64,000 bases of DNA. Origin: Opitutus terrae PB90-1 (GTDB lineage: Bacteria; Verrucomicrobiota; Verrucomicrobiia; Opitutales; Opitutaceae). Made by a program: the position numbers and the translations under genes. Under the pieces are notes generated by a model, which was not told where the DNA came from, ran no database searches, and was given only the letters and a program-made list of their open reading frames with translations. The first letter of the stretch is position 1, and each line of letters opens with the position of its first letter. Below, one piece after another: positions 13,381 to 57,174 of the stretch. The stretch lies in the NCBI RefSeq assembly GCF_000019965.1, contig NC_010571.1, positions 434,001 to 498,000 on the forward strand. Direction: 5' to 3'.

Positions 13381-13450
13381 CTCTCAACTCTCAGCTCTCA
13401 ACCCTCAACTCCCTACCCTCAACTCTCAACTCTGGACGCTCAGCTCTCCG
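13381..13450. repeat. Ten tandem degenerate heptamers overlapping the rlmN 3' end
   Basis: Seventy bases divide into ten 7-bp units without a gap. The commonest unit is CTCTCAA, with variants such as CTCTCAG, CCCTCAA and CTCTGGA. The rlmN stop codon (13426-13428) and its last eight codons lie inside the array. Only one arm is present here, unlike the two-armed copies in the flagellar cluster (45744, 53737, 57080) that use the same unit. Confidence 0.85.
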
Positions 13451-14493
13451 CGCTTGGCCCGGAGCTGTCCGCAGGCGGCGTCGATGTCAGGGCCGCGCGA
13501 GCGGCGCAGGTGCGTGACCACGCCGCGCGCACGCAGCTCGGCCAAAAACTGCGCCGCCGCCTCGTCGCCACTCGGCTCGTAGCGCACGCCGCGCAGGCTC
13601 AATCCGGTCGGATTGTAGTGCAGCAGGTTCACGTGCATCCGCCGCGATCCGATCACCGCGGCCAGCATGCGCGCATGCGCCGCGGAATCGTTCACGCCCT
13701 TGAGCAAACAATATTGGATGATCACGGGCCGGCCGCGACTCGCTTGGAACCGGTCAACCGCTGCAAGGATGTCGGCGATGGCGAACCGCCGGCCGGCGGG
13801 CAGCAGCGCGGCGCGCGTGGCATCGTCCGGCGCGTGCAGCGACACCGCGAGATTGATCCCCAGATCGGCCGCGGTCAGCGCGTCGATGCCTGGCACGAGC
13901 CCGACGGTGGAGACGGTGACCTGCCGCCAGCCGAGCCCACCATAGGTGTTGTCGGCGATTCGCCGCACCGCCGTGAGCACGGCGTCGAGATTCAGCAGCG
14001 GCTCGCCCATGCCCATGAACACGACGGTTTGCAGCTTCCGCCCGGCGCTGGCCGCCTCGCGTCGCAGCGCGAGAAACTGCTCGACCATTTCGCCCGCGGT
14101 GAGGTTGCGCTCGAAACCCGATTGCGCGGTCGCGCAGAAATCGCAGCCCATGGCGCATCCGACCTGCGAAGACAGGCAACCGGCCGCCCGATCGGCGCGG
14201 TAGTCCGGCATCAACACCGCTTCCACCGTGCGCCCGTCGGCGAGCCGTAGCAGCAGCTTCGTCGTGCCGTCGGCCGCCACCTGCCGCGCGGCCAGCGCGG
14301 TGCCGCCCGGTGCAAACTCGATCCGCAGCCGCTCGAGCAAGCCCGCCGGCCAGGGCCGGCCGGCCTCCGTCAGCTCACCGCACCGCGCATAGTACTCCCG
14401 CAGCACCCGCCCGGCGTGGCTTCGCTTGTAGCCCCACTGCGCCAGCACCGACGCCAGATCGTCGACGGACAGCTCGGCAAGGGAGGGACGCAT
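13426..14493 (-). CDS. rlmN: Dual-specificity RNA methyltransferase RlmN (radical SAM)
   Basis: 355 residues, the normal length. The radical-SAM cluster motif is CAMGCDFC (about 115-122). GEPLLN (SAM contact) and a late Cys in DAACGQL, which matches the methyl-carrying Cys of RlmN, are also present. RlmN methylates C2 of A2503 in 23S rRNA and of A37 in some tRNAs. The start ATG at 14493 has no Shine-Dalgarno site. The last residues (GELSVQS) and the stop are encoded by the heptamer array at 13381-13450, so the C-terminus has probably been reshaped by repeat insertion. Convergent with sir2. Confidence 0.95.
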   Translation of the reverse strand: MRPSLAELSVDDLASVLAQWGYKRSHAGRVLREYYARCGELTEAGRPWPAGLLERLRIEFAPGGTALAARQVAADGTTKLLLRLADGRTVEAVLMPDYRADRAAGCLSSQVGCAMGCDFCATAQSGFERNLTAGEMVEQFLALRREAASAGRKLQTVVFMGMGEPLLNLDAVLTAVRRIADNTYGGLGWRQVTVSTVGLVPGIDALTAADLGINLAVSLHAPDDATRAALLPAGRRFAIADILAAVDRFQASRGRPVIIQYCLLKGVNDSAAHARMLAAVIGSRRMHVNLLHYNPTGLSLRGVRYEPSGDEAAAQFLAELRARGVVTHLRRSRGPDIDAACGQLRAKRGELSVQS

Positions 14494-14791
14494 CCGATGA
14501 CTTGACCGCGGCCCGCGGGCATTGGCAACTCGCGAGCGAGGAGCGGCGCGTTAAGCGCGATGGCCACCGCGGCACGCTCGCGCCGGTGATTGTCACTTTC
14601 CCGAGAAATTTTCCGAGCATCGGGCCATCGGCCTTGCGCCGGAGAATTTCTTAATCTCCCATGAGGTATCCAGCCACTCCGTTCGAGCCTCCGCGATGCC
14701 GGCGATTTCGCCCGCTGCGGACCGGCGTGGTCCCATCTGCCGCGCGCGTGGTGCGCGGCGCCTAACGCAATCGATCAAACCCTGGAGAACC

Positions 14792-16198
14792 ATGCTTGCC
14801 ACCGCCCGCATCAAAGCCCGTCCGTTCCGTGTCTATCAGCGCGCCGATCTGCCGCGCATCCCGCAGTTGCAGCGCCTGCCGGCGGACACGTTGCTGGCGA
14901 TGCGAGCCGTGGCCGCCGTGCTGCCGTTTCGCGTCAACCAGTACGTCGTGGAGGAGCTGATCGACTGGAACAACCTCCCGGCCGATCCGATGTTTCAGCT
15001 CACGTTTCCCCAGCCCGGCATGCTGGCGGAAGCGGATCTGGCGAAGATGATGCGGCTGCTGGCGGACGGGGCCGACCAGCCGACGATCGAGCGCGCCGCG
15101 CGGCAGATCCAGCGCCGGCTCAACCCGCATCCCGCGGGCCAGATGGAGCTCAACGTGCCGTACTTCGACGGGCAACCGCTGTCCGGGATGCAGCACAAAT
15201 ACCGCGATACGGTGCTGTTTTTCCCGAGCCCCGGTCAGACCTGCCACACCTACTGCACCTACTGTTTTCGCTGGCCGCAGTTCGTCGGGCTCGACGAGTT
15301 GAAGTTTGCGAGCCGGCAGGCCGAGTCACTCGTGGCGTACCTGAAGGAGCATCCGGAAGTGAGCAATGTTCTCTTCACCGGCGGCGATCCGCTCGTGATG
15401 CGCACGGCGGTGCTGCGGCGCTACATCGAGCCGCTGCTCAGCCCGGAGCTGGAGCACATTTCCGCGATCCGGATCGGCACCAAGTCGCCGGCCTGGTGGC
15501 CGTATCGCTTCGTCAACGAGCCGGATTCCGATGATCTGCTGCGGCTGTTCGACCAAGTGCGTGCCGCCGGCCGGCACATGGCAATCATGGCGCACTACAG
15601 CCGGCCGCGGGAGTTGCAGACGCCCGTCGCGCAGGCGGCGTTGCGGCGGATCAAGAGCACGGGCGCCATCGTACGCTGCCAGGCCCCGCTCATCCGCCAC
15701 GTGAACGACGATGCCGACACCTGGGCGGATCTGTGGCGGCTGCAAGTCCGGCTGGGTGCCGTGCCCTACTACATGTTCGTCGAGCGTGATACCGGACCCA
15801 AGGGCTACTTCGAGGTCCCGCTGGCGCGGTGCTATGAGATTTTCCAGAAGGCCTACCGCCGCGTGTCGGGGCTTGAGCGTACCGTGCGGGGTCCGTCCAT
15901 GTCGGCCACGCCGGGCAAGGTGATCATCGACGGCGTGACGGAGCTCCAGGGTGAAAAGGTGTTTTCGCTGCGGTTCGTGCAGGCGCGCGAACCGGACTGG
16001 GTGCGCCGGCCATTCTTCGCGAAATTCGATCCGGAAGCCACCTGGCTCGATCAGCTGCGGCCCGCCTTTGGCGAACGCGAGTTCTTCTTCCAGCGCGCGC
16101 TGCGCGAGGTGAAGCACTCGCATCAGCAACCGGCGTTCGGACATCGGATCGCGCCGCGACGCAAGCTCGCGGTCTTCGGTCATGTCGAGTGGGAATAG
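14792..16198 (+). CDS. KamA-family radical SAM aminomutase-like protein
   Basis: 468 residues from the ATG at 14792, which has a GGAG site 7 nt upstream, one of few in the window. The radical-SAM motif CHTYCTYC is at about 150-157. LFTGGDPLVM and a lysine in TPGKVIIDG (near 376), which fits the PLP lysine of lysine 2,3-aminomutases, follow. The family moves an amino group between carbons; members include KamA and EpmB, which acts on lysine for EF-P modification. At 468 residues it is longer than EpmB and somewhat longer than KamA, so it may be a distinct subfamily. Substrate is unknown. No EF-P or lysine fermentation genes are adjacent. Confidence 0.8.
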   Translation: MLATARIKARPFRVYQRADLPRIPQLQRLPADTLLAMRAVAAVLPFRVNQYVVEELIDWNNLPADPMFQLTFPQPGMLAEADLAKMMRLLADGADQPTIERAARQIQRRLNPHPAGQMELNVPYFDGQPLSGMQHKYRDTVLFFPSPGQTCHTYCTYCFRWPQFVGLDELKFASRQAESLVAYLKEHPEVSNVLFTGGDPLVMRTAVLRRYIEPLLSPELEHISAIRIGTKSPAWWPYRFVNEPDSDDLLRLFDQVRAAGRHMAIMAHYSRPRELQTPVAQAALRRIKSTGAIVRCQAPLIRHVNDDADTWADLWRLQVRLGAVPYYMFVERDTGPKGYFEVPLARCYEIFQKAYRRVSGLERTVRGPSMSATPGKVIIDGVTELQGEKVFSLRFVQAREPDWVRRPFFAKFDPEATWLDQLRPAFGEREFFFQRALREVKHSHQQPAFGHRIAPRRKLAVFGHVEWE

Positions 16199-16317
16199 GC
16201 TCGCGCGGTGAGCGGACGCCCCGCCCTGGGCGAGGCCGATAGCGGCTACGTCATTGTCTCGAACGCCCTAACCTGGAAATTTCCCGCGCTCGTGACCGCC
16301 ATCGTGGATCCCACCGT

Positions 16318-16746
16318 CTAGGCGCGGCGCGACGCCAGCGCCGCGGGAATCCCCGGACGCTGGCCGGTGCCGGACCAGACCAGCGCGCTCCACAGCCCGT
16401 GTGTGCTGGTCGGATACTCCAGCAGCGCCTGCCGGCCCCAGCGGTCGCGCCACGCACAGAGCGCGGCTAACTGCACCACAAAGCCGACGCCCGTGCCCGC
16501 GAGCGCCGTATACGTGTCCGATTGGGCCACCGCCGCGGGCGGTGCGACACTGACCAGCGCGCGATGCACGCCGACGCGGTGAAGCAGCGCGTGCACTCGC
16601 TCGTCGAGCTGCCAGAGACGCAACAGCGAGCGCATGGGACGGGCTTCGTTGAAGCGGGTCGCGAGCGTGACTTCGGCCAGGGCTTCGTCGGCGGCGGTGG
16701 CCTGCAAGATGCGGTGAGTCGGGGACGAGGACGCGGCGGGTAACAT
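16318..16746 (-). CDS. Hypothetical protein
   Basis: 142 residues from an ATG at 16746. The composition (Leu, Ala, Arg, with several Trp) is protein-like, and the C-terminal half has a weakly hydrophobic stretch around GVGFVVQLAALCAW. No family is recognised and no motif is clear. It stands alone, convergent with the radical SAM gene and downstream of the GH43 gene on the same strand after 252 bp. A chance frame in GC-rich DNA cannot be excluded, although no other frame in this stretch looks better. Confidence 0.4.
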   Translation of the reverse strand: MLPAASSSPTHRILQATAADEALAEVTLATRFNEARPMRSLLRLWQLDERVHALLHRVGVHRALVSVAPPAAVAQSDTYTALAGTGVGFVVQLAALCAWRDRWGRQALLEYPTSTHGLWSALVWSGTGQRPGIPAALASRRA

Positions 16747-16751
16747 GGGGC

Positions 16752-16769
16752 GGCGGGATTCACCCCGCC
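16752..16769. repeat. Short GC hairpin
   Basis: GGCGGG and CCCGCC flank a 6-nt loop, just upstream of the 142-residue ORF. It resembles the other small GC-rich palindromes in this window. The rest of 16770-16950 shows no gene or clear signal. Confidence 0.4.
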
Positions 16770-16952
16770 CGCCAAAGTCGGCGGACGGTCGCCCCTGGAC
16801 CGACCCCAGACACGCCGGTTCGGGCGCGCCGCCCCCTTAGTAGGCGCACGAAACCGCGGCAGAAGTACGGCTGCACGCGGGCCACACGGTCACGGACGCC
16901 GCACGCAACCGCCCTACGCAGATCGCGCAGACCAACGGGCCGAGAAGGGGGA

Positions 16953-16970
16953 CGCGAGGCTCGCCTCGCG
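16953..16970. terminator. GC hairpin downstream of the GH43 gene
   Basis: CGCGAGGC and GCCTCGCG form a perfect 8-bp stem with a 2-nt centre, 28 bp past the GH43 stop at 16999. There is no strong T-tract, only a C/T-rich run after it on the minus strand. It could end GH43 transcription or be a copy of a dispersed palindrome. Confidence 0.45.
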
Positions 16971-16998
16971 CCCTGGCGTGCACCGGTCCGCAGCCTGC

Positions 16999-17961
16999 TC
17001 AGGGCTCCATCGGCCGGATCGAGCCGTCGGCCTCGTAGAACAGTTCCTGCACCTTGACGGAGCGCTTGTAGGAAATGCCTCCGGAGAGCGACGCATCGTG
17101 GTAGTAAAGCCACCAGCGGCCCTGGTGCTCGACGATCGAGTGATGCGTCGTCCAACCCAGCACCGGCGGCAGGAACCGGCCGCGGAACGTGAACGGTCCC
17201 AGCGGGCTCTTGCTCGTCGCGTAAACCAGGTTGTGGGTGTCACCGGTCGAATAGGAAAGATAGTAGGTGCCCTGGTAGAGGTGCATCCACGGTCCCTCGA
17301 AATAGCGGCGGGCTGTGTTCGAACCTTTCAGCGGCTGACCGCTGGCGTCGGTGATGACCAAATCCTGCGGTGGCGTGGCGAACTGCAGCATGTCGGGCGT
17401 GAGCTTCGCGATCTTCGGGCAGAGCGCGGGCCGGCTGTCGACCGGTTCCTTGGCGTCCTTGACGAACTTGCCCGTGGTCCAGCACTGCAGTTGTCCGCCC
17501 CAGAGGCCGCCGAATGCCAGGTAGAACTCGCCATCGGCCGCCTGGAACACGCAGGGATCGATGCTGAAGCTGCCCTTGATCGGCTGCGGCTCAGGCTTGA
17601 ACGGCCCCTGCGGCTTCGTGGACGTGGCCACGCCGATCCGGAAGATGCCGTCCTTGTCGCGCGCCGGGAAATAGAGGTAGTACCGGCCGTTCCGAAAGGC
17701 GGCATCGGGTGCCCACATTTGCCGCGACGCCCAGGGCACATCCTTCACGTGCAGCACCTCGCCGTGATCCGTCACCGGTCCCTCCGGATGCTCCTGCGAG
17801 AACACGTGGTAGTCGGTCATGCCATACTGGTCACCCAAGTCATTCTCCGCCATGTCCTGCGGCAGGTCATGCGACGGGTAGATAAAAACCTTGCCGTCAA
17901 ACACGTGGGCGGACGGATCGGCAGTGAAAAGGTGGCTGATCAACGGTTTCTTCGTGCTCAT
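16999..17961 (-). CDS. Glycoside hydrolase family 43 protein
   Basis: 320 residues from the ATG at 17961; longer frames upstream lack homology. The five-bladed propeller family signature is clear: the general-base Asp in TADPSAHVFDG (near 15), the pKa-modulating Asp in SIDPCVF (near 135) and the general-acid Glu in YFEGPWMH (near 221). MWAPDA also fits. Known members are beta-xylosidases and arabinofuranosidases acting on xylan or arabinan. No signal peptide is visible, so it likely works in the cytoplasm on imported oligosaccharides. Together with the PL10 lyase at 23516 it points to plant polysaccharide use. Confidence 0.9.
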   Translation of the reverse strand: MSTKKPLISHLFTADPSAHVFDGKVFIYPSHDLPQDMAENDLGDQYGMTDYHVFSQEHPEGPVTDHGEVLHVKDVPWASRQMWAPDAAFRNGRYYLYFPARDKDGIFRIGVATSTKPQGPFKPEPQPIKGSFSIDPCVFQAADGEFYLAFGGLWGGQLQCWTTGKFVKDAKEPVDSRPALCPKIAKLTPDMLQFATPPQDLVITDASGQPLKGSNTARRYFEGPWMHLYQGTYYLSYSTGDTHNLVYATSKSPLGPFTFRGRFLPPVLGWTTHHSIVEHQGRWWLYYHDASLSGGISYKRSVKVQELFYEADGSIRPMEP

Positions 17962-18290
17962 GAAAACTCTCAAAGGTTGAGACCAGAGGCCGATCGGCTC
18001 GGCGCAACCTGGAATGGGACACACTGCGGAAAGCACATCATGGGGTCCATGCGCAGGGCAGTCGAATCTTAGACTGACGGCGGCGCCCGGCGGAGCCGAG
18101 GCGCGACGCGACGGACCGTCCGACCGCCGGGGAGCGACCGCGGCGAGCGCGGAGCTGCCATTAGCGCACCGCCCGGCTGGATGCGGCTTCGCTAATCTCC
18201 ACCGTGGCCCCAGGAAAATCCATTGTCCCGCGGCGGCGGCTGCGGCATTCGGATGCCTCCGCGTGCCCGCTGGCCGCGAGTTACCTCCCC
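17962..18290. other. Intergenic region between GH43 and the tryptophanase homologue
   Basis: 329 bp between divergent genes. It must hold both promoters, but I see no convincing -35/-10 pair. A single CTCTCAA next to GGTTGAG (about 17967-17981) resembles a minimal copy of the heptamer repeats. No ORF is supported. Confidence 0.5.
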
Positions 18291-19760
18291 ATGAACGACG
18301 ACTCCGCTTTTCCGACCGAGGTCAAATTTTTCAGCGGCGAAGAGATCCCGCTGGAGCTGCACAAGGTCCGCGTGGTGCAAAAGCTCCATCTGCGGCCGGT
18401 GGAGGAACGGCATCGGGCGATGGAGGCCGCCGGCTACAACACCTTCCTGCTGCACACCCGCGACCTGTTCCTCGACATGCTCACGGACAGCGGCACGAAC
18501 GCGATGAGCGACCAGCAGATCGGCGCGATGATGGTCGCCGACGATGCCTATGCCGGCTCCGCGAGCTTCGCGCGGATGCAGGACGCGATCCGCGACGTGC
18601 TCGGGATGAAGTATGTGCTCCCGGTCCACCAAGGCCGCGCGGCCGAGAACGTGATCTCAAAAACGTTCATCAAGGCCGGCGACGTCGTCCCGATGAACTA
18701 TCACTTCACGACGACCAAGGCGCACATCGACATCAACGGCGGGAAGGTTTTGGAGATCTACACCGACGAGGCGCTGAAGATCAAAAGCGCGCACCCGTTC
18801 AAGGGGAACCTCGATCTCAAGAAGCTCGAAGCCGTCATCGCGGAATACGGACCGGCGCGCATCCCCTACGTGCGCATGGAGGCGTCGACCAATCTCATCG
18901 GCGGCCAGCCGTTCTCGATGCAAAACCTGCGCGATGTCCGCGCCATGACGCGCCAGCACGGAATCATGCTCGTGCTCGACGTCTCGCTCGTCGGTGAAAA
19001 CATCTGGTTCATCAAGCAGCGCGAGCCGGAGTTCAAGAACGCGAGCATCCGCGACATCCTGCTGGAGTTCTGCAGCCTCTCGGACCTGATCTATTTCTCC
19101 AGCCGCAAGGTCAGCTCGACCCGCGGCGGCGCGATCGCGACGAACCGGCAGGATTTGTTCAACCGGATGAAGGACCTCGTGCCGCTCTACGAAGGCTTCC
19201 TCACCTACGGCGGCATGTCGGTGCGCGAGATCGAAGCGATGGCCGTGGGCCTGCGCGAGACGATCGACGACACGATCATCAGCCAGTCGCCGAGCTTCAT
19301 TAAATATCTGATCAACGATCTCGACAGCTCCGGGCTGCCGGTGGTCACGCCGGCAGGCGGGCTCGGCGCGCACATCGATGCGCGCGGATTCCTGCCGCAC
19401 GTGCCGCAGACGGAGTATCCCGCCGGCGCGCTCGCCGCCGCGTTCTACATCGCCTCGGGCGTGCGCGGCATGGAGCGCGGCACGATCTCCAGCGTGCGCG
19501 ACGAGAACGGCAACGACATCCTCGCCGACGTGGAGCTGCTCCGGCTCGCGATGCCGCGGCGCGTGTTCACGCTCTCGCAGGTCAAGTACGTGGCCGACCG
19601 GCTGAAATGGCTCTACGCCAACCGCGAGTTGATCGGCGGGCTGAAGTTCGTCGACGAGCCGAAGGTGCTGCGCTTCTTCCTCGGCCGGCTCACGGCCACC
19701 AGCGACTGGCCCGCGAAGCTCGTCGCCAAGTTCCGCCGCGATTTCGGCGAAAGCCTGTAG
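18291..19760 (+). CDS. Tryptophanase/tyrosine phenol-lyase family PLP enzyme
   Basis: 489 residues from the ATG at 18291. Similarity to TnaA and Tpl runs end to end, for example HQGRAAENVISK, ENIWFIKQREPEF and GGLGAHIDA. The Schiff-base Lys is probably the K in SSRKVSS (near 272). In classical members the aspartate that pairs with the PLP nitrogen is followed three residues later by an Arg; here the segment reads LDVSLVGEN, with Leu at that place. The residue after the PLP Lys is Val rather than Asp. So substrate or reaction may differ from cleavage of tryptophan or tyrosine. No tnaB-type permease or leader peptide is adjacent. Confidence 0.8.
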   Translation: MNDDSAFPTEVKFFSGEEIPLELHKVRVVQKLHLRPVEERHRAMEAAGYNTFLLHTRDLFLDMLTDSGTNAMSDQQIGAMMVADDAYAGSASFARMQDAIRDVLGMKYVLPVHQGRAAENVISKTFIKAGDVVPMNYHFTTTKAHIDINGGKVLEIYTDEALKIKSAHPFKGNLDLKKLEAVIAEYGPARIPYVRMEASTNLIGGQPFSMQNLRDVRAMTRQHGIMLVLDVSLVGENIWFIKQREPEFKNASIRDILLEFCSLSDLIYFSSRKVSSTRGGAIATNRQDLFNRMKDLVPLYEGFLTYGGMSVREIEAMAVGLRETIDDTIISQSPSFIKYLINDLDSSGLPVVTPAGGLGAHIDARGFLPHVPQTEYPAGALAAAFYIASGVRGMERGTISSVRDENGNDILADVELLRLAMPRRVFTLSQVKYVADRLKWLYANRELIGGLKFVDEPKVLRFFLGRLTATSDWPAKLVAKFRRDFGESL

Positions 19761-20111
19761 CCGCGACGCGTGCTTGCTGCGCCCTCGGCGTACCGGCGGC
19801 CTCCGGGGCTGCCGATGGAGCGCGCGCGACCCGGCAGGCAGCGACGCTGCCGCTAGCCGGGGCGCGGCTCTCTGCGCGCTCACCTGAGCGCGCCTTAGGA
19901 GAATTCTCCCACGGGAGGAGACCAGAAGCGCCCCGCTTCTTTGTCCGGCGGTCGCTGTCGCATTGACTCGCGACCGCGCGCGGGGCGTTCTGCCGCCGCG
20001 CTCGGATGATCCCCACCCTCACACCACACACCGCCGAGCGAGATCCCACCTGCTGAGCATCCGCCACGTCGCGTTCTGCTCGCAGAGAGGCGAACCGCCG
20101 CGGCCCACATC
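19761..20111. other. Intergenic region with small palindromes
   Basis: 351 bp between two plus-strand genes. It contains GC-rich inverted segments near 19830-19860 and a perfect 12-bp palindrome GGAGAATTCTCC at 19898-19909, which could be an operator. No supported ORF and no clear promoter. Confidence 0.45.
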
Positions 20112-21326
20112 ATGAGCTCCCTCGCCTGCCGGCCGCTGCGTGCGGCCCTTCTGTTCGCGGTCGCTGCGACCGCCGTCTCGGCCCAATCGTGGTCGACTCC
20201 GGCCCGGATCACCGCCGCCGGGCTGCCTGCCGGCTCGCGCTTTGGCGCGGCCGTCTCGCTCAGCGGCCACACACTCGTGCTCGGCGCGCCCGATGACTCG
20301 ACGTCCACGCCGTATGCAGGTTCTGCTTACGTGTTTCTCCGCCAGGACGGCGTCTGGCGCCAGCAAGCGCGGCTGACCGGGCCGGCGACGGAAGGCTATC
20401 GTTCGTTCGGTGAAACCGTGGCCGTCGACGGCGACACGCTGGTGGTGGGCGCGCCCTTCGACGATCCTGACGGTTATGCTTCGGGGGCCGCTTACGTCTA
20501 CGGCCGCTCCGGGACAAGCTGGCAGCTGCGCGCCGTGCTGCGCCCGGCGGATCCGGCGGAAGACAAGCAGTTCGGGCATGCCGTGGCGATCGACAACGAC
20601 GTGATCGTCGTCGGCGCGTTTCTCGATAGCGACTACGCGCTCTACTCCGGCGCGGCGTACGTTTTCACTTCGGCCACGGGTCCGTGGACCCAGGTCGCCA
20701 AGCTCACCGCCAGCGATCCAAGCGAGGTCGCGTTCTTCGGTTCCGCCGTGGCGATTCAGGATCACACGATCGTGGTCGGCGCGCCCGTCGCGGAATCGGC
20801 TTACGTTTTCGGCCGGCGCTCGGGACGCTATGTGCAAGTGGCGCGACTGCGCTCGAACGACTATGATCCGGACGACACTTATGTCGCCTTCGGCGCCGCG
20901 GTATCGGTCGATGCGGGACGGATCGCCGTGGGTGCGCCGCTCGCGGCGTTCAACGGCGTGCAGTCTGGCGCCGCTTATGTGTTCGGCAAGAGCGGCAGCA
21001 ACTGGGTGCAGCAGGCCCGGGTCCTCGCGCAAGGCGGGCAGCCCGAAACGGAGTTCGGCACCGCCGTCGCGCTGCGCCAAAACACGCTCGTCGTCGGCGC
21101 GCCTTACGAAGGCGATCAAAACCAGGGCGCGGTTTTCGTTTATCAACTCGTGAACGCGGAGTGGACGCAAAATGCGCGGTTGACCGCGCCGGCCAAGCCC
21201 GCCGTCGCGTTTCTCGGCATCAGCGTGGCCGCCGGTACGGACGGCGTCGTCGGTGGCGCGCCTGGGTATTCCTACGAAGGCGCGACGAGCGTGGTGGGCG
21301 CCGCGGAAGTTTTCGCTCCGCGCTGA
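20112..21326 (+). CDS. Secreted FG-GAP repeat (beta-propeller) protein
   Basis: 404 residues with a signal peptide (about 1-24, ending VSAQ). The rest is seven or so repeats of about 50-55 residues, each with FG.AV.., a LVVGAP-type strand and a GAAYVF strand, the integrin alpha-like FG-GAP pattern. Such repeats fold into a propeller and are common in large surface proteins of this phylum. There is no C-terminal anchor, so it is probably periplasmic or released. Partner and function are unknown. It stands alone. Confidence 0.85.
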   Translation: MSSLACRPLRAALLFAVAATAVSAQSWSTPARITAAGLPAGSRFGAAVSLSGHTLVLGAPDDSTSTPYAGSAYVFLRQDGVWRQQARLTGPATEGYRSFGETVAVDGDTLVVGAPFDDPDGYASGAAYVYGRSGTSWQLRAVLRPADPAEDKQFGHAVAIDNDVIVVGAFLDSDYALYSGAAYVFTSATGPWTQVAKLTASDPSEVAFFGSAVAIQDHTIVVGAPVAESAYVFGRRSGRYVQVARLRSNDYDPDDTYVAFGAAVSVDAGRIAVGAPLAAFNGVQSGAAYVFGKSGSNWVQQARVLAQGGQPETEFGTAVALRQNTLVVGAPYEGDQNQGAVFVYQLVNAEWTQNARLTAPAKPAVAFLGISVAAGTDGVVGGAPGYSYEGATSVVGAAEVFAPR

Positions 21327-21418
21327 TCGCCGCCGCCGCAGGCGAGGCGGCCGCATTCCGGCTTTTCCCCCATTTCGCGGCGGCGCGCGCCGGGCGATAG
21401 TGCGCGTCCTTTCCGATC

Positions 21419-21952: not shown

Positions 21953-22174
21953 CCGGCGGTTCGGCGTGCTTTCGCCCCTCTCCGGCTCCGGCCTGACCCA
22001 TTTCGTCGCAGGCCGCGATCGCGTCGCCACGCGTTTACGGTTGCGCCGTGCGAACGGTCGCGCGCGCCGCGACTCCGTCAAACGGATCAACGGCGTGAGT
22101 CGGCACCGCGGCACAATCGATCCGGGCAAATTGTCTGTGGCGCTCCGCCCGGGGTCGCGCCACACTCCTGGCGA

Positions 22175-23335: not shown

Positions 23336-23515
23336 GAGGATGAAAGGTGAAGCCCACCGCGCCCCTCACGCGCCGGGATGGAGGGTTCCACCTGGGCGGT
23401 GACGCGGTTGGGCTCATGACGGATCCGGCGCCGCGTATCGCCGATCTTCGTCTCATCGTCGACCACCGGCAACCCCGGCCTTGCGCAATCGTCTAGCCGT
23501 GCAATCGCTCTCCCC

Positions 23516-34806: not shown

Positions 34807-34955
34807 CCCTTCCTCCGCCTCGTTCTCTTTCCCTTTCTCGTTCTCTCTCTTCGCATCCCTCCTATCGGGCATTCCCTTGCGGCGAGATATAGAAGAAGAG
34901 AACAGGAACGAGAAAGAGAACGATTCTGAGGAGAACGAATGAGAGAATGAGAAAG
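34807..34955. repeat. Two-armed degenerate hexamer repeat element
   Basis: The left arm (about 34807-34866) is a run of 6-bp units such as CTCGTT, CTCTTT and CTCTCT. The right arm (about 34892-34955) has units such as GAGAAC and GAGAAA that are largely the reverse complement. A 25-bp unique spacer separates them. It lies in the 293-bp gap between the converging multi-PAS kinase and flagellin genes. The plan matches the heptamer elements elsewhere but the unit is 6 bp. Confidence 0.7.
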
Positions 34956-39130: not shown

Positions 39131-39137
39131 GGGGATG

Positions 39138-39223
39138 TTGGATTTTCGATTTTGGATTTTCGATTGGCGGATTCCGGCGGGCGTTCAGCCGAGCTCGAAA
39201 TCTCCCATCGAAGATCGAAAGGG
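39138..39223. repeat. Two-armed heptamer element, TTGGATT/TTCGATT type, before flgK
   Basis: Four exact 7-bp units alternate TTGGATT and TTCGATT at 39138-39165. A complementary right arm near 39195-39223 has TCGAAGA and TCGAAAG. It occupies nearly all of the flgN-flgK gap. The unit sequence differs from the CTCTCAA loci but the layout is the same. Confidence 0.75.
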
Positions 39224-45743: not shown

Positions 45744-45842
45744 TTAGTTGAGAGTTGAGGGTTGAGCGTTGAGAGCAAAAGCCGGCGCGCACCGAGGTAC
45801 CGTCCGGTCTCCCAACTCTGAACTCTCAGCGTTCAACCTCAT
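45744..45842. repeat. Two-armed heptamer element between motA and motB
   Basis: The left arm at 45744-45778 tiles as AGAGTTG, AGGGTTG, AGCGTTG and similar 7-bp units. The right arm at 45811-45838 tiles as CCCAACT, CTGAACT, CTCAGCG and TTCAACC, mostly the reverse complement. The spacer is about 32 bp. In motA-motB mRNA it would fold into a long imperfect stem just before motB. Confidence 0.85.
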
Positions 45843-47593: not shown

Positions 47594-47613
47594 GGGAGGG
47601 GGTAGCAAACAGG

Positions 47614-48023: not shown

Positions 48024-48031
48024 GGATGCGA

Positions 48032-51327: not shown

Positions 51328-51329
51328 GT

Positions 51330-52433
51330 TCAGAGGGCGGCCTCAAGCCGGCGGGCCTTGAGCCGGTGGAAATAGTAACGATGCGTGCGATACACGACGG
51401 CGAGGATGCTCGCCACCGCCTGGTAGAGCTCGGGCGGGATCGCCTCGCCGACCTTGCCCATCGAGAAAAGCAGGCGCGCGACCGGCTTGTTCTCGACCAT
51501 GGGCACGCCGTGTTCGGCGGCGATGGCCTTGATGCGCTGGGCAAAACGGTTCTCGCCCTTGGCGAGCACGACCGGCGCCGCGTCCTTGCCGCGCTCGTAC
51601 TTCAGCGCCACGGCGAAGTGCGTCGGGTTGGTCACGACCACGTCCGCCGTCGGGACCGCGGACATCATCTGCCGCTGCGTGAGCCGGCGGGCCATGCGGC
51701 GCATCGCCATCTTCGCCTGCGAACTGCCCTCCTGGTTCTTGTGCTCATCCTTCAGCTCCTGCCGGGTCATCATCAGATCGCGGTGCGTCTTGAACTTTTC
51801 GTAGGAGTAGCTGATGGCCGTGATGACTCCGAGGGCGAGGATCAGCCGGGAGAGAAACACATAGGTGGCGTCGGTGAGAAACTGCCCCAGGTAGGCCGCT
51901 TCGACGGGCGCGCTGAAGAGCGGGTCCATCATCAAGCCCCGCGCGCCGAGGTAGAGCGCGGCGCCCAGGGCCACCAGCTTGAGGAGATCGACGCCGGCGC
52001 GCACGAGTGCGGATTTGTTGAAGACCCGCTTGAACCCCTCGACCGGGTTGAGCCGCTCGGGCTTGAAGCCGAACGCTTCAGGCGTGAGCCGGAAACCGCT
52101 CTGCACCCCGCCCGCCAGCAACGCGGCGACGACGCAGGCGAGCAGCAGTGGCGCAAGCGCGGTGCCGCTGGTGAGCATCGCCTCGCCAAAATAGGCGCGG
52201 ATGGTGTCGTGCTCGACCTTCATCGAGCCGAACCGTGAAAACAATGAAGCCGCATAGGTGGCGACCTCGCGCGAGGCCTCGCGTACGCTGAAGCTCAGCG
52301 CCGCCAACACCGCGACCAGCAGAAAGAGCACCGCGAGCTCCGGCGAGCGCGCAAACTGGCCGCGATCCATCGCCTCGGAGAGCTTCTTTTCGGACGGCTG
52401 CTCGGTTTTTTGGTCTTGGTCGTGCTCGGCCAT
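51330..52433 (-). CDS. flhB: Flagellar export switch protein FlhB
   Basis: 367 residues. It starts MAEHDQDQKTEQPSEKKLSE, followed by four TM segments and the autocleavage motif NPTH in VVVTNPTHFAVALKYERG. FlhB changes export from rod/hook to filament proteins with help from FliK. A sigma-54 type promoter lies right upstream, so flhB heads a second unit (flhB to the small gene after motB). Confidence 0.96.
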   Translation of the reverse strand: MAEHDQDQKTEQPSEKKLSEAMDRGQFARSPELAVLFLLVAVLAALSFSVREASREVATYAASLFSRFGSMKVEHDTIRAYFGEAMLTSGTALAPLLLACVVAALLAGGVQSGFRLTPEAFGFKPERLNPVEGFKRVFNKSALVRAGVDLLKLVALGAALYLGARGLMMDPLFSAPVEAAYLGQFLTDATYVFLSRLILALGVITAISYSYEKFKTHRDLMMTRQELKDEHKNQEGSSQAKMAMRRMARRLTQRQMMSAVPTADVVVTNPTHFAVALKYERGKDAAPVVLAKGENRFAQRIKAIAAEHGVPMVENKPVARLLFSMGKVGEAIPPELYQAVASILAVVYRTHRYYFHRLKARRLEAAL

Positions 52434-52447
52434 GCGCGACGGGCCTT

Positions 52448-52465
52448 GAGCAGCGGTAATGCCAA
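52448..52465 (-). promoter_or_regulatory. Sigma-54 (RpoN) type promoter before flhB
   Basis: The minus strand reads TTGGCATTACCGCTGCTC. GG (complement of 52462-52463) and GC (complement of 52450-52451) are 10 nt apart, and TTGGCAT and TGCT match the flgF promoter exactly. The predicted start is near 52438, about 5 nt before the ATG at 52433. It lies in the 204-bp gap after fliR. Confidence 0.6.
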
Positions 52466-52637
52466 GGGGTTATTTTCGGATTTTAGCCACTCACCACCAA
52501 CAAATTAAACTTAAAACTCCATCGAGGCCGGACGCTCCGTCGCGGCCGCGCCGCAAAACGAAATCCGGCAGGCAATTTTTGCCGGCATCCTGCCTCCGCT
52601 GCCGCGCGACTGCATTCGCGCCAGGGACGGAGCCGAC

Positions 52638-53387
52638 TCAGCGAGCGAACAACTGCAGCATGCGCACCGGGGTGTCGTCGAATTCCAAGTAAAGGTAGCG
52701 CGCGATCAGCGTGCCGCCCGAGGCGAGCAGCGTGAAGCCGGCGATCAGCCGCATCGAGAAGCTGACAATGAAAACATTCATTTTCGGCAGCACGCGCCCG
52801 AGCACGGAAAACGTCAGCAGTACGAGAAAGTTCATCGCGATGAACGGCGCGGCGATTCGCACCCCGACTTCGATGAGATGCGAGGTGGCGTTGATGAGGA
52901 GATCGCTGGCGGACGGCGCGAGCATCGGCTGGCCGGCGGGCGCCAGCACGAAGCTGCGGGCCAGGCCCGAGAGCATCATGAGATGGCCGCCGAACGCGAA
53001 AAAGAGCACGACCGCGAAGGTGCTGATGAGCGCGGTCATCGGTTCCGTGGCCGGCTCCGGCACGCCCATACCCCCGCCCATCGTGATGCCAATCTCCGAC
53101 GAAAGGATGCGCCCCGCCATTTCCACCGCGGCGAACGCCAGGCGCACCATGAAACCGAGCGCGAGGCCCACCAGAATTTCCCCGGCCGTCGCAGCGAGCA
53201 GCCCCCAAAGGGTCGCCGGCACGCTGGATTCGGGCACGACGCCCGCGAGCAGCGACGCGATGCACACGCAGATGCCCAACCGCGCCATCACCGGAATCGG
53301 CCGTCCCGCCACCAACGGCAGCTGGAGGATCACACCCAGCGTCCGCAGGAACACCATCATCCAGGTGACGAGAAATCCGAGAGTCAT
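52638..53387 (-). CDS. fliR: Flagellar export gate protein FliR
   Basis: 249 residues from the ATG at 53387 (MTLGFLVTWMMVFLRTLGVI); a further ATG at 53417 adds 10. Six hydrophobic segments, GEILVGLALGFMVRLAFAAV and the late YLYLEFDDTPVRML end are FliR-like. It builds the export gate with FliP and FliQ. It follows fliQ by 73 bp. A 204-bp gap to flhB marks the end of the upstream unit. Confidence 0.93.
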   Translation of the reverse strand: MTLGFLVTWMMVFLRTLGVILQLPLVAGRPIPVMARLGICVCIASLLAGVVPESSVPATLWGLLAATAGEILVGLALGFMVRLAFAAVEMAGRILSSEIGITMGGGMGVPEPATEPMTALISTFAVVLFFAFGGHLMMLSGLARSFVLAPAGQPMLAPSASDLLINATSHLIEVGVRIAAPFIAMNFLVLLTFSVLGRVLPKMNVFIVSFSMRLIAGFTLLASGGTLIARYLYLEFDDTPVRMLQLFAR

Positions 53388-53460
53388 CGTGTGAAGTGAG
53401 CGCGGACAACGGGCCATGCGAGGGCAGCAGCAGCCGGCGAGCCCGCTGCCAGCCGCCCGC

Positions 53461-53730
53461 TCAATGCCCGAGCGTGCCCATCCGGCTGATCATCGTGATC
53501 GCGAATTCGGAGAGCGATCGCAGCAGCCACGGCGTAAGGATCAGCAGCAATCCTCCGATGCCGATCAGCTTCGGGATAAACGTCAGCGTCTGCTCCTGCA
53601 GACTGGTGATGGATTGCAGCAAGCTCGTCACCAAGCCAATCACCAGCGTCAGCAGCAGGAAAGGCGCGGCGATGTAGAGCGCGAAGACGACCGTGGTCTT
53701 GAAAAAATCGATCGCGAGTTCGGGATTCAT
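53461..53730 (-). CDS. fliQ: Flagellar export gate protein FliQ
   Basis: 89 residues with two TM helices. MNPELAIDFFKTTVVFALYI and SLQEQTLTFIPKLIGIGGLL are the conserved family parts. It is separated from fliP by a two-armed heptamer element rather than by the usual short gap. Confidence 0.95.
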   Translation of the reverse strand: MNPELAIDFFKTTVVFALYIAAPFLLLTLVIGLVTSLLQSITSLQEQTLTFIPKLIGIGGLLLILTPWLLRSLSEFAITMISRMGTLGH

Positions 53731-53736
53731 ACGCCG

Positions 53737-53832
53737 AGGGTTGAGAGTTGGGTGTTGAGAGTTGAGCGGTGAAAGCAGCGTGAGTGGGACGGAATCGTGT
53801 CGGGTGATCGGTCTCCCACCACAGCTCTCAAC
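53737..53832. repeat. Two-armed heptamer element between fliP and fliQ
   Basis: The left arm 53737-53771 tiles as AGGGTTG, AGAGTTG, GGTGTTG, AGAGTTG and AGCGGTG. The right arm 53812-53832 has TCTCCCA and TCTCAAC units. The spacer is about 40 bp and unique. It has the same unit family as the copies at 45744 and 57080. Confidence 0.85.
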
Positions 53833-53836
53833 CTGT

Positions 53837-54745
53837 TCAGGTAACGAAGCTCTGGACGAGCGAACGGACGACGAGATGCCAGCCGTCGACGAGCACGAAC
53901 AGCAGCAGTTTCAGCGGCAGCGCGACGGTGACGGGCGGCATCATCATCATGCCCATCGCCATCAGCACCGACGCCACGAGGAAGTCGATCACGAGGAACG
54001 GCAGGAAAAGCAGGAAGCCCATCTGAAACGCTGTCTGGAGTTCGCTGATCACAAACGCCGGGATGACGACGCGAATCGGGAGATCTTTCACCGCCGTCGG
54101 GCCGAACCCGCCGAGCTGGAGGAAATACTCGATGTCCCGGGTGCGGGTCTGTTTCAGCATGAACTCCTTCAACGGCACTGTCGCATGATCGAGCGCCTGC
54201 GTCGCAGTGATCTGTCCGTCCAGGTACGGTCGCAACGCCTCTTGGTTCACGCGATCGAACACCGGGCCCATGAGGAAGAACGTGAGGAAGAGCGCGAGGC
54301 CGATGACGATTTGGTTCGATGGCGCGCTCGGCGTGCCGAGCGCGGTACGCACGAACCCGAGTACGATCACGAGCCGGGTGAACGTCGTCATCAGCAGTAC
54401 GATCGACGGCGCCACGGAAAGCAGCGTCATCACGAGGACGATCTGCACCGCCACGCTCACCTGCCCCTGCTGGTTGGTGCCCTCGAGGCCGATGGAGAGC
54501 CGCAGCGGATCCTTGTTGGTCGTGCTGGTCGCCCCCGGCGTGGTCGCGGGACTGGCCGCGGGGTTGGCGGGTGCCGCCGCGGGGGTGGTCGGGAAAACCA
54601 CGGCTGGCGGCGTCTGCGCGGCCACGGTCGGCCCGAGCACGAAGCCCATGAGCACGAACGCGAGCGCGAAAATGGCCCGCAACCCCGATGCGTTGCAGCG
54701 AGAGCGGGACGCCTGCTCTCCCCGGCTCGAGTTCAGCGCGTTCAT
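53837..54745 (-). CDS. fliP: Flagellar export gate protein FliP
   Basis: 302 residues from the ATG at 54745, which overlaps the fliO stop (ATGA). A signal peptide and a Pro/Ala/Thr-rich segment precede the core. The core has VQIVLVMTLLSVAPSIVLLM and TTFTRLVIVLGFVRTALGTP, then VIPAFVISELQTAFQMGFLL and MGMMMMPPVTVALPLKLLLF, all canonical. FliP forms the pentameric base of the gate with FliQ and FliR. Confidence 0.96.
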   Translation of the reverse strand: MNALNSSRGEQASRSRCNASGLRAIFALAFVLMGFVLGPTVAAQTPPAVVFPTTPAAAPANPAASPATTPGATSTTNKDPLRLSIGLEGTNQQGQVSVAVQIVLVMTLLSVAPSIVLLMTTFTRLVIVLGFVRTALGTPSAPSNQIVIGLALFLTFFLMGPVFDRVNQEALRPYLDGQITATQALDHATVPLKEFMLKQTRTRDIEYFLQLGGFGPTAVKDLPIRVVIPAFVISELQTAFQMGFLLFLPFLVIDFLVASVLMAMGMMMMPPVTVALPLKLLLFVLVDGWHLVVRSLVQSFVT

Positions 54746-55185
54746 GAGCGCGGCCGGTCGACCGGTGGAGTGGAATCGTTGAGCGGCGCGAGCAGATCGA
54801 TCCGGCCCGGGCAGACGCCGAGCAGATATTTGCGATCCTGATAAGTCGCGACCACGAGGTATTGGCGGGCACCGAGCGAACGCGTCTCCTCGATGGCGAG
54901 CTGCCGGGGCGCCGTGCGCAGCCCGGTGAACGGAGTGCCCTTGCCGCGCCACAGCATCCAGCCGCCTGTCGCCGCCAGGGCGACCGCCGCGAAGGCGGTG
55001 AGCGCGCCCATGCCGCTGCCGCGCGCCGGTGAGGCCGCCTGCTGGGCCGAGCTTTTGGGCGTGATGATCTCGTCCTGATTCGCGGGCGCGGCCAACGCCC
55101 CTGACGCGCCGAAGGCAAGAGCCAGCGCGCATGCGGCGAAGCCCGACCGCCAGCAGGAGCGCGATCGCTGCGGGAGAAGCCTCAC
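54742..55185 (-). CDS. fliO: Flagellar biosynthesis protein FliO
   Basis: 147 residues with a signal-like N-terminus, one TM (about 60-78) and a short cytoplasmic part with LAIEETRSLGARQYLVVATY, the typical FliO strand pattern. FliO is a scaffold for FliP assembly. Sequence conservation in the family is low; the place between fliN and fliP settles it. It overlaps both neighbours by 4 bp. Confidence 0.85.
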   Translation of the reverse strand: MRLLPQRSRSCWRSGFAACALALAFGASGALAAPANQDEIITPKSSAQQAASPARGSGMGALTAFAAVALAATGGWMLWRGKGTPFTGLRTAPRQLAIEETRSLGARQYLVVATYQDRKYLLGVCPGRIDLLAPLNDSTPPVDRPRS

Positions 55186-55436
55186 GGCGCCTTCTCGCTC
55201 CCGACGAGCTCCGTGATCTTGATGCCGAAGTTGTCTTCGACGACCACCACCTCGCCGTAGGCCACGAGCTGGTCGTTCACGAACAAGCCGACCGGATCGC
55301 TCGCGTGCTGCGTGAGCTGCACGACCGAGCCGGGTGAGAGTTCGAGCACCTCCCGCATCGGCAACTGGACGGAACCGAGCTGGACGGTGACCTTCACCTT
55401 CACGTCGAGCACGATATCAAGGGCTTTTTCTTCCAT
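55182..55436 (-). CDS. fliN: Flagellar switch protein FliN
   Basis: 84 residues from the ATG at 55436, a minimal FliN made of one SpoA domain: VKVTVQLGSVQLPMREVLEL, then VGLFVNDQLVAYGEVVVVED and NFGIKITELV. It builds the lower C-ring with FliM. The start lies 20 bp inside the end of fliM, so translation is coupled. Confidence 0.94.
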   Translation of the reverse strand: MEEKALDIVLDVKVKVTVQLGSVQLPMREVLELSPGSVVQLTQHASDPVGLFVNDQLVAYGEVVVVEDNFGIKITELVGSEKAP

Positions 55437-56472
55437 CGGATTTGAGCGGGTTCGCAGGACCCGGGACGGTTTTGCGCGTGAGCTGCACGGCCACGCGATC
55501 GCTGTCGAGGCCGACCGTGCCAACAAACTTGGGCACGTTGTTCAGCAGCACGCGGGTTTCGTGAAAAATGGAAGCGGGCAGTTCGAACACGTCCCCGACG
55601 CGGAGACTGACCACCTCGCGCAGGCTGATGTCCATCGCCGACCACTCGGCCCGCACCGGCACCTTGATGTGCTCGTAGGCGGCCTGCCACTCCGCCTTCT
55701 TGGCGGTGGTGGAGACGGCGGTGTCCTTCTGCCGGCGCGCCTGCATTTTTTTCACCACCGGCTCGATGGTGTAATACGGCACGCCGATCTGGATCTGCTC
55801 GGAGCAATCGCCGAAGTTGGCCTCGAGCGTGAGGATCAGGACGATCGCGTCCTTGGGCGAAGTCTGCAGGAACCGGCCGTTGTTTTCATGGCCGATGATC
55901 TGCGGCCGCAGCTCCTGCTCGGTTTTCCACTGCGTACACCATTCTTCGAGGACGATGTTCACCACGTCCTCCAGCAGCGCGATTTCGATTTCGGTGAGAT
56001 AGCGCTCGGCTTTGACGGAATGGCCACGGCCGCCGAGCAGCCGGTCGGCGATGGTGAGCGCGAGACGCGGATTGATGTCGAGAATCCCGACGCCGATGAG
56101 CGGCTCGACCTTGAAGAGGCACAGGTGCGTCGGACTCGGCAACGAGTCCGTGAACTTGGCGTAGGTGGCGGTGGTCAGCTTCGCCATCTTCAGCCCCAGC
56201 TCCATCCGCAGATAGAGCGAGAGTCGCGCGGCGAGATAGCGGATGAAATCTTCGTGCAGCAGCCGCAGCCGGCGCAGCTCCACCTCGGACAGGAAAACCG
56301 GATTGCGGAAATCGTAAGGCTCAACCTTCAGGACCGGCGTGGGCCCGCGCGCGCCCTCGGGGCGGAGCAGGAACTGCTTCGGCGGGGCAACCGCCATTTC
56401 CTGCGCGAGCAGCTTATCGATCTCGGATTGATCGAGAATGCTGCCGGTGGAGTTGGAGGGATCGTCGGCCAT
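55417..56472 (-). CDS. fliM: Flagellar switch protein FliM
   Basis: 351 residues. The N-terminal CheY-P binding peptide is present as ILDQSEIDKLLAQEM. The middle domain (about 50-235) and a C-terminal SpoA domain (VKVPVRAEWSAMDISLREVV, VQLTRK) follow. It links the switch to chemotaxis. The ATG shares one base with the fliL stop (TAATG). Confidence 0.95.
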   Translation of the reverse strand: MADDPSNSTGSILDQSEIDKLLAQEMAVAPPKQFLLRPEGARGPTPVLKVEPYDFRNPVFLSEVELRRLRLLHEDFIRYLAARLSLYLRMELGLKMAKLTTATYAKFTDSLPSPTHLCLFKVEPLIGVGILDINPRLALTIADRLLGGRGHSVKAERYLTEIEIALLEDVVNIVLEEWCTQWKTEQELRPQIIGHENNGRFLQTSPKDAIVLILTLEANFGDCSEQIQIGVPYYTIEPVVKKMQARRQKDTAVSTTAKKAEWQAAYEHIKVPVRAEWSAMDISLREVVSLRVGDVFELPASIFHETRVLLNNVPKFVGTVGLDSDRVAVQLTRKTVPGPANPLKSDGRKSP

Positions 56473-57074
56473 TACTGCACCACGAAGTCCGAAAAATACA
56501 CCTGCTCGGCGACCTTGCGGCCGAGCGCCTGGTTGTAAGCGGAAACCAGCTTCTCGCGCAGCACGTTCTTGGCGCCCGGCTCTTCGAGATCGGCGAGCGA
56601 GAGCGACGACAGCACGTTGAGCGTCACGTCAGTCAGCCGCGCCTTGTTCGTCTCGAAGACCGACTTGATCTCCGGATCGCTGCCGGTGACGAGGAAGCTC
56701 GTCTTGAGATAGCGCGTGCCCATGGTGCCCGAGAGGTTGACCACCATGTTTTGGAACTCGTAATTCGGCGCCGAGTCCTTGCCGTTTTTGCCGTGCGCGC
56801 CCCCCTCGCCGTGGCCTTCCTCCGTCGCCACCTGTTCGGCCACCGGCGCGGCGCCGAGTTTCTTCTCGAGCTGGGGAATCAGCACGAACTGACAGACCGC
56901 CCAGGTACACACCGGCGCAAGCACGACCGTCGCAATCGCCGGCAGCCAGGCTTTGAGTCCGCCGGCCGCGGACGGCGCGGCGGCGGAGAGCGCGGGTGCG
57001 GCTGGCGCCGACGCCGCGGGCGCGGGTGCCCCGCCAGGCGCGGCAGCGGCAGGAGTGGGAGCGGCTTTGGCCAT
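56472..57074 (-). CDS. fliL: Flagellar basal body-associated protein FliL
   Basis: 200 residues. A 35-residue Ala/Pro-rich start precedes one TM (about 42-65, LPAIATVVLAPVCTWAVCQF). The stomatin-like periplasmic domain has VVNLSGTMGTRYLKTSFLVT and ends KVAEQVYFSDFVVQ. FliL sits around the stator and raises motor output. Between it and flgE is another heptamer element. Confidence 0.9.
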   Translation of the reverse strand: MAKAAPTPAAAAPGGAPAPAASAPAAPALSAAAPSAAGGLKAWLPAIATVVLAPVCTWAVCQFVLIPQLEKKLGAAPVAEQVATEEGHGEGGAHGKNGKDSAPNYEFQNMVVNLSGTMGTRYLKTSFLVTGSDPEIKSVFETNKARLTDVTLNVLSSLSLADLEEPGAKNVLREKLVSAYNQALGRKVAEQVYFSDFVVQ

Positions 57075-57079
57075 CAGAT

Positions 57080-57174
57080 AAGTTGAGGGTTGAGAGCTGA
57101 GGGTTGAGAGTCCGGAGGTCGGGAGTTGATCGCCGCCGAACGCGCGCTCTCAACTCTCCCCTCTCAACTCTCAA
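57080..57174. repeat. Two-armed heptamer element between flgE and fliL
   Basis: The left arm 57080-57121 tiles as AAGTTGA, GGGTTGA, GAGCTGA, GGGTTGA and so on. The right arm 57147-57174 is CTCTCAA, CTCTCCC, CTCTCAA, CTCTCAA. The spacer is about 25 bp. It nearly fills the 105-bp gap. Confidence 0.88.

Follow-up and report, generated by a model that had tools for sequence, protein, structure and literature searches.

The short tandemly repeated repetitive (STRR) sequences of cyanobacteria are heptanucleotide repeats made of 7-bp tandem units, and eukaryotic foldback (FB) transposons have inverted ends composed of short tandem repeats. Here we analyse a family of TTGAGAG/CTCTCAA heptamer arrays that came to attention in a 64,000-nt stretch of the Opitutus terrae PB90-1 genome (NC_010571.1, positions 434,001 to 498,000; hereafter the window), where gene junctions carry arms of about four heptads, either single or in inverted pairs that enclose a spacer. 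Judged by description, these elements share the 7-bp tandem units of STRR sequences, to which they add a two-armed layout and a four-unit peak, and they share the inverted tandem-repeat ends of FB transposons but are far shorter.

Rehm et al. (2015) described GGGAATC and GGGGA(C/T)T heptamer repeats in Xanthomonas and Nostoc (PMC4692102). That paper, which also mentions Calothrix repeats, reports for Xanthomonas GGGAATC a four-unit preference, convergent pairs, of which two xanthomonads have 70 and 75, a G-rich strand pointing away from the nearest open reading frame (ORF) at both starts and stops, and few copies between divergent genes; 83% of the repeats are common to two Xanthomonas species, and Nostoc has only few pairs. 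In the same text, the four units are tied to quadruplexes and the function is left open. As far as this description goes, the TTGAGAG arrays are alike in their 7-bp units, mainly intergenic position, four-unit preference, convergent pairs and outward G-rich strand, but their consensus has no G-tract and does not supply four tracts able to form a quadruplex, and their heptamer occurs in many groups of bacteria beside sister families with 6-, 7- and 10-bp units. As the consensus lacks G-tracts, quadruplexes cannot be the general cause. The anatomy is known from Xanthomonas.

MacGregor (2015) reported TAACTGA repeats from marine Beggiatoaceae, cyanobacteria and Bacteroidetes (PMC4679880), which number two to six copies in the main genome and up to 43 elsewhere and lie mostly upstream of starts; of 170 sets in the main genome, one is an inverted repeat. 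Both families are intergenic direct heptad repeats in distant lineages with an orientation relative to the start codon, but TTGAGAG arrays are not mostly at starts (15 of 29 nearest a start, 14 of 29 nearest a stop). A third parallel is offered by GTAG-tagged repetitive extragenic palindromic (REP) dimers and the related REPINs, which are described as inverted doublets of short repeats, often with variable spacers (PMC3733652, PMC3116915); O. terrae is reported to be highly enriched in GTAG repeats (PMC3733652). TTGAGAG elements are likewise inverted doublets with variable spacers, but their arm consensus carries no GTAG or CGTC tag, and the arms are tandem heptads rather than imperfect palindromes.

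The open-licence literature searched yielded no report of the TTGAGAG form, just two plant papers for the tandem heptamer sequence, and none on heptanucleotide repeats in Verrucomicrobia. Earlier accounts of bacterial heptamer repeats invoke polymerase slippage or a link with quadruplexes. In the present family, a heptamer whose consensus is free of G-tracts has the preference for four units, the convergent pairs and the outward polarity of the Xanthomonas repeats, and it recurs in many groups, which points to a single generating process behind them. It takes away the quadruplex as a general explanation and suggests a layout of general occurrence. Anyone reading such repeats as gene-specific regulators should control for this placement rule.

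TTGAGAG/CTCTCAA arrays are abundant and mainly intergenic

The preliminary description had identified four loci of 7-bp CTCTCAA/TTGAGAG units, and Tandem Repeats Finder (TRF) confirmed period-7 arrays at all four (Table 1), while CTCTCAACTCTCAA, with up to 3 mismatches, matched the window 27 times against 2.6 expected, a count reached in 0 of 100 shuffles. Three of the loci had been placed between flagellar genes, which Pfam assignments bear out: they are gaps between minus-strand genes, motA-motB (109 bp), fliP-fliQ (106 bp) and FlgE/F/G-family-fliL (105 bp; hereafter flgE-fliL). TRF gives 3.9–4.4 copies per arm at these paired loci, about four units rather than the five to six first counted.

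The genome, a single contig of 5,957,605 bases that is 100% complete, was sampled as 80 evenly spaced 20-kb stretches (1.6 Mb, one overlapping the window), with genes called by a coding-score script. This sample holds 43 arrays, 32 intergenic and 11 in called genes, against 0–2 for each of 12 permuted heptamers and none in one Markov shuffle. Permuted heptamers served as the control, since reversing the letters of CTCTCAA merely gives one of its own rotations, which invalidates the reversed pattern. Period 7 is the commonest of the strong short-period intergenic runs (19), followed by period 6 (10), and called genes contain 14 period-7 runs in about six times as much DNA. Inverted repeats of any family with a score of at least 14 number 99 in 739 gaps of 40–600 bp, against 2 in one resampling, many of them starting with GTAG- or GTGG-like tags. 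The earlier proposal that intergenic gaps hold a two-armed repeat family is right, and the comparison with shuffled DNA suggested along with it came out in its favour.

The arm is about 30 nt long and has preferred ends

The commonest form is an arm of ~30 nt with preferred ends, consisting of AG followed by four TTGAGAG-type heptads. With arm length taken as the matched run, 23 of 46 arms in the own-genome sample measure 27–33 nt, 9 measure 17–26 nt, 11 measure 13–16 nt and 3 are longer; in a genome of the same genus (G387), 19 of 31 fall at 27–32 nt, 2 at 21–22 nt and 9 at 13–15 nt. Among cross-phylum loci, which were selected by a perfect 21-mer, 96 of 194 arms lie at 27–34 nt and 51 reach 35 nt or more. 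Among the 69 own arms that match a 21-mer, 35 end exactly in TTGAGAG and 56 start at one of three adjacent bases, and an extra terminal TT, present in 69 of 189 cross-phylum arms, is more frequent there than in own arms. Units 2 and 3 are the most variable positions in the own genome, and GGG enters the arm consensus only through a TTGAGGG variant, mainly in these two units.

A search of the whole genome with the motA-motB element (40 of 143 candidates scored) returned 51 other matches, 44 with E below 0.002, and 40 of the 51 are confined to the left arm. Eight more enter the spacer by up to 15 bases, one covers the right arm, and two span the element end to end at 72–74%.

Polymerase slippage is cited as an explanation for bacterial heptamer repeats in two reports (PMC4692102, PMC4679880). 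It would make the arrays simple sequence repeats grown at tolerated sites, with each inverted pair being two independent arrays. Slippage would suit the predominance of period 7 in intergenic runs, the independence of paired arms in length and, in this family, in sequence, the different heptads found at one site in different species, the missing four-unit peak in sister families, and long arms such as the 51 cross-phylum ones or an unusually long, near-perfect ATGAGAG array of ~24 units in a gap between same-strand genes (L181 9961-10129). However, lengths should then fall off, and neither a peak nor preferred ends would be expected. A falling copy-number distribution is not seen for CTCTCAA arms, whose lengths are concentrated around four units while arms of three units are fewer, so that the earlier idea of an expanding repeat fits this heptamer poorly. 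Nor would slippage lead one to expect a fixed order of the arms, an outward rule or the occurrence of a single heptamer in many groups, and we consider it unlikely.

Paired and single arms share one polarity

Opposite arms no more than 200 bp apart are ordered TTGAGAG...CTCTCAA in 57 cases and reversed in 2 (59 pairs). The ratio is 11:0 in the own genome, for a set that takes in the window and stretches picked for arrays, 7:1 in G387, where two of the seven are copies with a common spacer, 2:0 in other family genomes and 37:1 at cross-phylum loci. As this order is almost invariant, the TTGAGAG strand heads away from the gene beside it. Among the intergenic arrays of the own-genome sample that could be used, 27 of 29 have this strand directed away from the closest gene (29 of 43 once 11 genic arrays and 3 without a one-side neighbour are set aside): CTCTCAA is in sense in the 15 nearest a start, and TTGAGAG is in sense in 12 of the 14 nearest a stop. 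The outward rule, from which arrays inside called genes are excluded, holds for 47 of 54 own loci, 96 of 117 other loci and 33 of 35 convergent gaps across all groups, and, by a crude ORF caller, for 69 of 84 cross-phylum and 16 of 19 G387 arrays. Unpaired arms follow the same rule as paired ones. Arrays inside genes, by the crude caller, are CTCTCAA-sense rather than TTGAGAG-sense by 83 to 7 in the cross-phylum set and 16 to 0 in the own sample, because TTGAGAG contains stop codons.

The start-proximal arrays could be taken as leader sites, with heptads bound by proteins or ribosomes upstream of start codons, much as S1, cold-shock or Csr-type protein binding is proposed for TAACTGA repeats (PMC4679880). 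This would account for the 15 arrays nearest a start, but the 14 nearest a stop have mostly the opposite sense, convergent gaps obey the rule, and the same site can hold a different heptamer, which leaves leader sites very improbable. Selection through stop codons, Shine-Dalgarno mimicry or Rho was also considered and set aside, given the 33:2 ratio in convergent gaps and the opposite chemistry of sister families.

Spacers are not shared, and paired arms do not co-vary in own and family genomes

The spacer has a median length of 33 nt (quartiles 24 and 64; 57 pairs). When 11 own spacers were compared with 30% of the genome, 7 had no other match, that of motA-motB among them, 3 had a match of 16–17 bases (for flgE-fliL a single one of 17 bases), and 1 matched another repeat family. 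The same search recovered a ~100-bp core shared by the MITE-like (miniature inverted-repeat transposable element) CTAGCCCGG family, whereas TTGAGAG elements have no core common to their copies. Transposition of the whole element, core included, was rejected because the spacers are not common to copies. A MITE-like element of ~145–160 bp with a conserved core and ends CTAGCCCGGAAATTTCATGAA occurs at L154 11441-11601, L159 8315-8459, L228 882-1025 and other sites.

The right arm had been described as the approximate reverse complement of the left at all three paired loci, in an element that folds as an mRNA stem. The complementarity is strong at flgE-fliL (RNA z −4.2 against shuffles) and moderate at motA-motB (z −3.1), but weak at fliP-fliQ, where 9 bases pair, z is −1.0 and 30 of 200 shuffles fold equally well; the single-arm locus at 13381 folds no better than shuffles (z +1.4). 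Arm lengths within a pair are uncorrelated (rho 0.04), and complementarity within elements shows no excess over permuted pairs in the own genome (18.0 versus 19.4; 11 pairs) or in family genomes (16.6 versus 17.9; 9 pairs). Across phyla it does (21.4 versus 19.7; 37 pairs), a comparison confounded by units that differ between genomes. As the arms co-vary neither in the own genome nor in those of the family, there is no support for a conserved mRNA stem, and selection for such a stem was rejected, even though single elements fold.

A function as an RNA hairpin, with the pair folding in the transcript between genes to terminate transcription in both directions, to serve as a processing site or to stabilise the mRNA, would be consistent with the two window elements that fold better than shuffles. 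It would also be consistent with the frequency of intergenic inverted repeats, counted over all families, which is lower in divergent gaps (8 in 35.6 kb) than in convergent ones (20 in 19.3 kb). The cross-phylum excess in complementarity, confounded as it is, would also agree. However, own and family pairs fall slightly below shuffled ones, fliP-fliQ folds no better than shuffles, and the element is missing in most resolved relatives. Unpaired arms keep the same polarity, although selection for hairpins gives no polarity to a single arm, and sister families have the opposite chemical sense. We regard a hairpin function as quite improbable.

Relatives differ at the same sites and the heptamer recurs in other groups

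The motA-motB junction could be resolved in 22 of 24 relatives, and 17 of the 22 have gaps of 3–35 bp. Others hold a degenerate single arm (G387), a TTCAACC-type array (G402), other inverted repeats (G389 and G420) or unclassified sequence (G400), with the end of MotA possibly misplaced in G389 and G400. For fliP-fliQ, read by eye, 18 of 30 loci were resolved, 17 with gaps of 0 to ~65 bp, and none of the 18 has a CTCTCAA pair after fliP; G140 carries a run of a different heptamer there and G420 another inverted repeat. The element is therefore present or absent between species, as the comparison of orthologous gaps proposed earlier was meant to reveal, and the suggested tuning of these flagellar genes becomes doubtful.

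Matching pieces of genomes G178 and G166 are 85–94% identical over 160 kb, in which an 18-base criterion finds 5 arrays in G178 and 1 in G166. One of the five is shared coding sequence, and at the other four sites G166 has, by eye, other heptads or repeats. Among 15 short indels listed between the two genomes, none belongs to the CTCTCAA family; the longer allele contains an inverted repeat scoring at least 10 in 11 and at least 13.5 in 8, counts that come without a shuffle control. With a third species as reference, one REP difference looks like a loss in G178.

An exact 21-mer scan found matches in at least 119 stretches. The 80 matches listed include Bacteroidota, Fibrobacterota, Chloroflexota, Cyanobacteriota, Planctomycetota, Acidobacteriota, Gemmatimonadota, Bacillota and Verrucomicrobiota, and are mostly from metagenome bins, the strains including Akkermansia muciniphila, Chamaesiphon polymorphus and Pinibacter aurantiacus. 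In 24 genomes of other groups, chosen from these matches, 4 to 1493 matches with up to 3 mismatches were counted, at least 23 in 22 of the 24, with overlapping registers of one array counted several times. Within Verrucomicrobiota, 52 of 387 genomes have a match, and 14 of 36 within the own family.

The arms may be the ends of an insertion-like element

From the length peak, the preferred ends, the polarity, the unshared spacers, the presence or absence between species and the recurrence of one heptamer across groups, we infer that the arms may be recognised ends of a non-autonomous, fold-back, insertion-like element, a reading that we favour while rating it somewhat below an even chance. Among the options raised in the preliminary description, a mobile palindromic element fits best. 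The short motA-motB and fliP-fliQ gaps of most resolved relatives also back this reading, as do the uncorrelated arm lengths, the single pair order kept by sister families, and the convergent-gap result, because translation or operon polarity cannot select there in the same way. Families differ in whether purines or pyrimidines predominate in the left arm, which argues for ends defined by sequence, not by chemistry.

The conserved object would then be the ~30-nt arm of AG plus four TTGAGAG-type heptads, standing at gene junctions alone or as an inverted pair around a median of 33 nt of unshared DNA. The inverted ends would be what a putative enzyme recognises, as in a REP doublet or a MITE, but the core, unlike theirs, would not be copied along with the ends. 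Such elements would accumulate at sites that tolerate inserts, mainly short intergenic gaps, and a gene-specific function would not be needed.

Several observations weigh against the reading of the arms as element ends. The length measure that reveals the four-heptad peak gives none for GATTTTC, GGACGGT or hexamer arms. Most arms are unpaired: an opposite arm within 200 bp is found on the inner side of 4 of 43 sample arrays and on the outer side of 1, and 26 neighbouring arrays have the same orientation. With a looser match in the unbiased sample, 3 pairs have the usual order and 1 the reverse, and the outward rule holds for 36 of 42. At one coding site (L312 5885-5918), G178 and G428 have four CTCTCAR units where G166 has four ACYCGCT units, so arrays may be rewritten in place, and two of the G166 absences look like losses when a third species is taken as reference. 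Neither a target-site duplication nor a filled and empty pair with an outgroup was found for the TTGAGAG/CTCTCAA family, no transposase was linked to it, and neither enzyme tested (Y1_Tnp, RVT_1) tracks the arrays among 48 genomes. Copying of ends without cores is, moreover, unusual for transposition.

All 14 family genomes with arrays have Y1_Tnp, as do 16 of 18 without them and 11 of the 16 genomes from other groups that bear arrays (presence only, with REP-associated tyrosine transposases not separated and many assemblies incomplete). It occurs in 41 of the 48 overall and was not found in 5 array-bearing ones; with no tracking of the arrays seen in these counts, a Y1 or REP-associated transposase was set aside as their maker. 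RVT_1 occurs in 18 of 48 genomes and has no match in the complete O. terrae genome, on which ground a telomerase-like origin through RVT_1 was rejected. In end extension as such, TTGAGAG units would be added outward to 3' ends at DNA breaks in short intergenic gaps, and the ends would be joined again through filler, leaving a telomere-like repair scar. From this one would expect the order of the arms, an outward rule at starts and stops of genes alike, arms of independent length, elements with one arm, and spacers that differ between copies. It gives no reason to stop at four units, however, and the obvious templating enzyme is missing from the own genome, and we assign end extension a small probability.

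Broadening the element-end reading, one could posit a cross-phylum class of insertion-like elements, defined solely by ends of ~30 nt built from short tandem units (four heptads, or perhaps three decads), with one polarity, no conserved core and a maker that is neither a Y1 transposase nor an RVT_1 enzyme. The Xanthomonas, Nostoc and TTGAGAG repeats would be its members, and the quadruplex would be incidental. We consider such a class possible but doubtful.

Loci in the window

Table 1. Coordinates of repeat arms, spacers and adjoining genes in the window.
Feature	Position	Strand	Type or remark	Basis
Single-arm array	13381-13448	+	CTCTCAA, 9.7 copies	TRF
sir2	12510-13325	+	convergent neighbour of the 13381 array	
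Radical-SAM gene	13426-14493	-	3' end overlapped by the 13381 array	
motA-motB element, left arm	45746-45775	+	TTGAGAG type; 7 nt upstream of motB start	TRF array 45746-45775
motA-motB element, spacer	45776-45808			
motA-motB element, right arm	45809-45836	+	CTCTCAA type, degenerate	pattern match, pair scan
fliP-fliQ element, left arm	53736-53772	+		TRF (array 53736-53766) and pattern match
fliP-fliQ element, right arm	53820-53832	+	very short	sequence; 9 bases paired in RNA fold
flgE-fliL element, left arm	57082-57110	+		TRF; inverted-repeat scan
flgE-fliL element, spacer	57111-57146			
flgE-fliL element, right arm	57147-57175	+		TRF; inverted-repeat scan
Two-armed 6-bp-unit element	34811-34932		TCTCGT type ... 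ACGAGA type; convergent gap	inverted-repeat score 18.5

Right arms are weak in two of the three paired loci. An ungapped inverted-repeat scan of the window gaps raised only flgE-fliL of the three above threshold, and the fliP-fliQ right arm was not picked up as an array in the scan for opposite arms. At 13381 there is a single arm, flanked by convergent Sir2 and radical-SAM genes (Pfam). Beside this array, at 13328-13365, is a copy of a REP-like family (GTGGCACGGGCGAGACGCCCGCGC...), inverted pairs of which occur in the sample.

Sister families and other repeats

The own-genome sample contains other heptamer arrays of the GATTTTC, GGACGGT, CAGAGTC and GGCGATT types, together with a TCTCGT hexamer and a CACAGATGAA decamer, whose arms measure 27–28 nt in 9 of 16 cases. 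With the left arm of each family named after its pairs had been seen, pair order was the same in 11 of 11 hexamer, 6 of 6 GATTTTC, 7 of 7 decamer and 3 ATTGGCG pairs, none being reversed; a related GAAATCC element (L154 14362) runs the other way. Agreement with the gene-boundary rule is mixed: GGACGGT 12 of 13, CAGAGTC 15 of 17, ATTGGCG 10 of 12, GATTTTC 15 of 20, hexamer 20 of 27, decamer 16 of 23, TAAGGCT 2 of 5 and GTTCGGA 2 of 9.

In the window, a GATTTTC heptad array at 39134-39220 is followed ~30 bp on by a degenerate GAAAATC-type run, a sister two-armed family below the inverted-repeat threshold. Intergenic pairs of the palindrome TTTCACGTAATACGTGAAA, 70–115 bp apart, occur at L154 2344-2485, L184 4108-4246, L150 19266-19409 and L223 4555-4663, and could be regulator sites or element ends.

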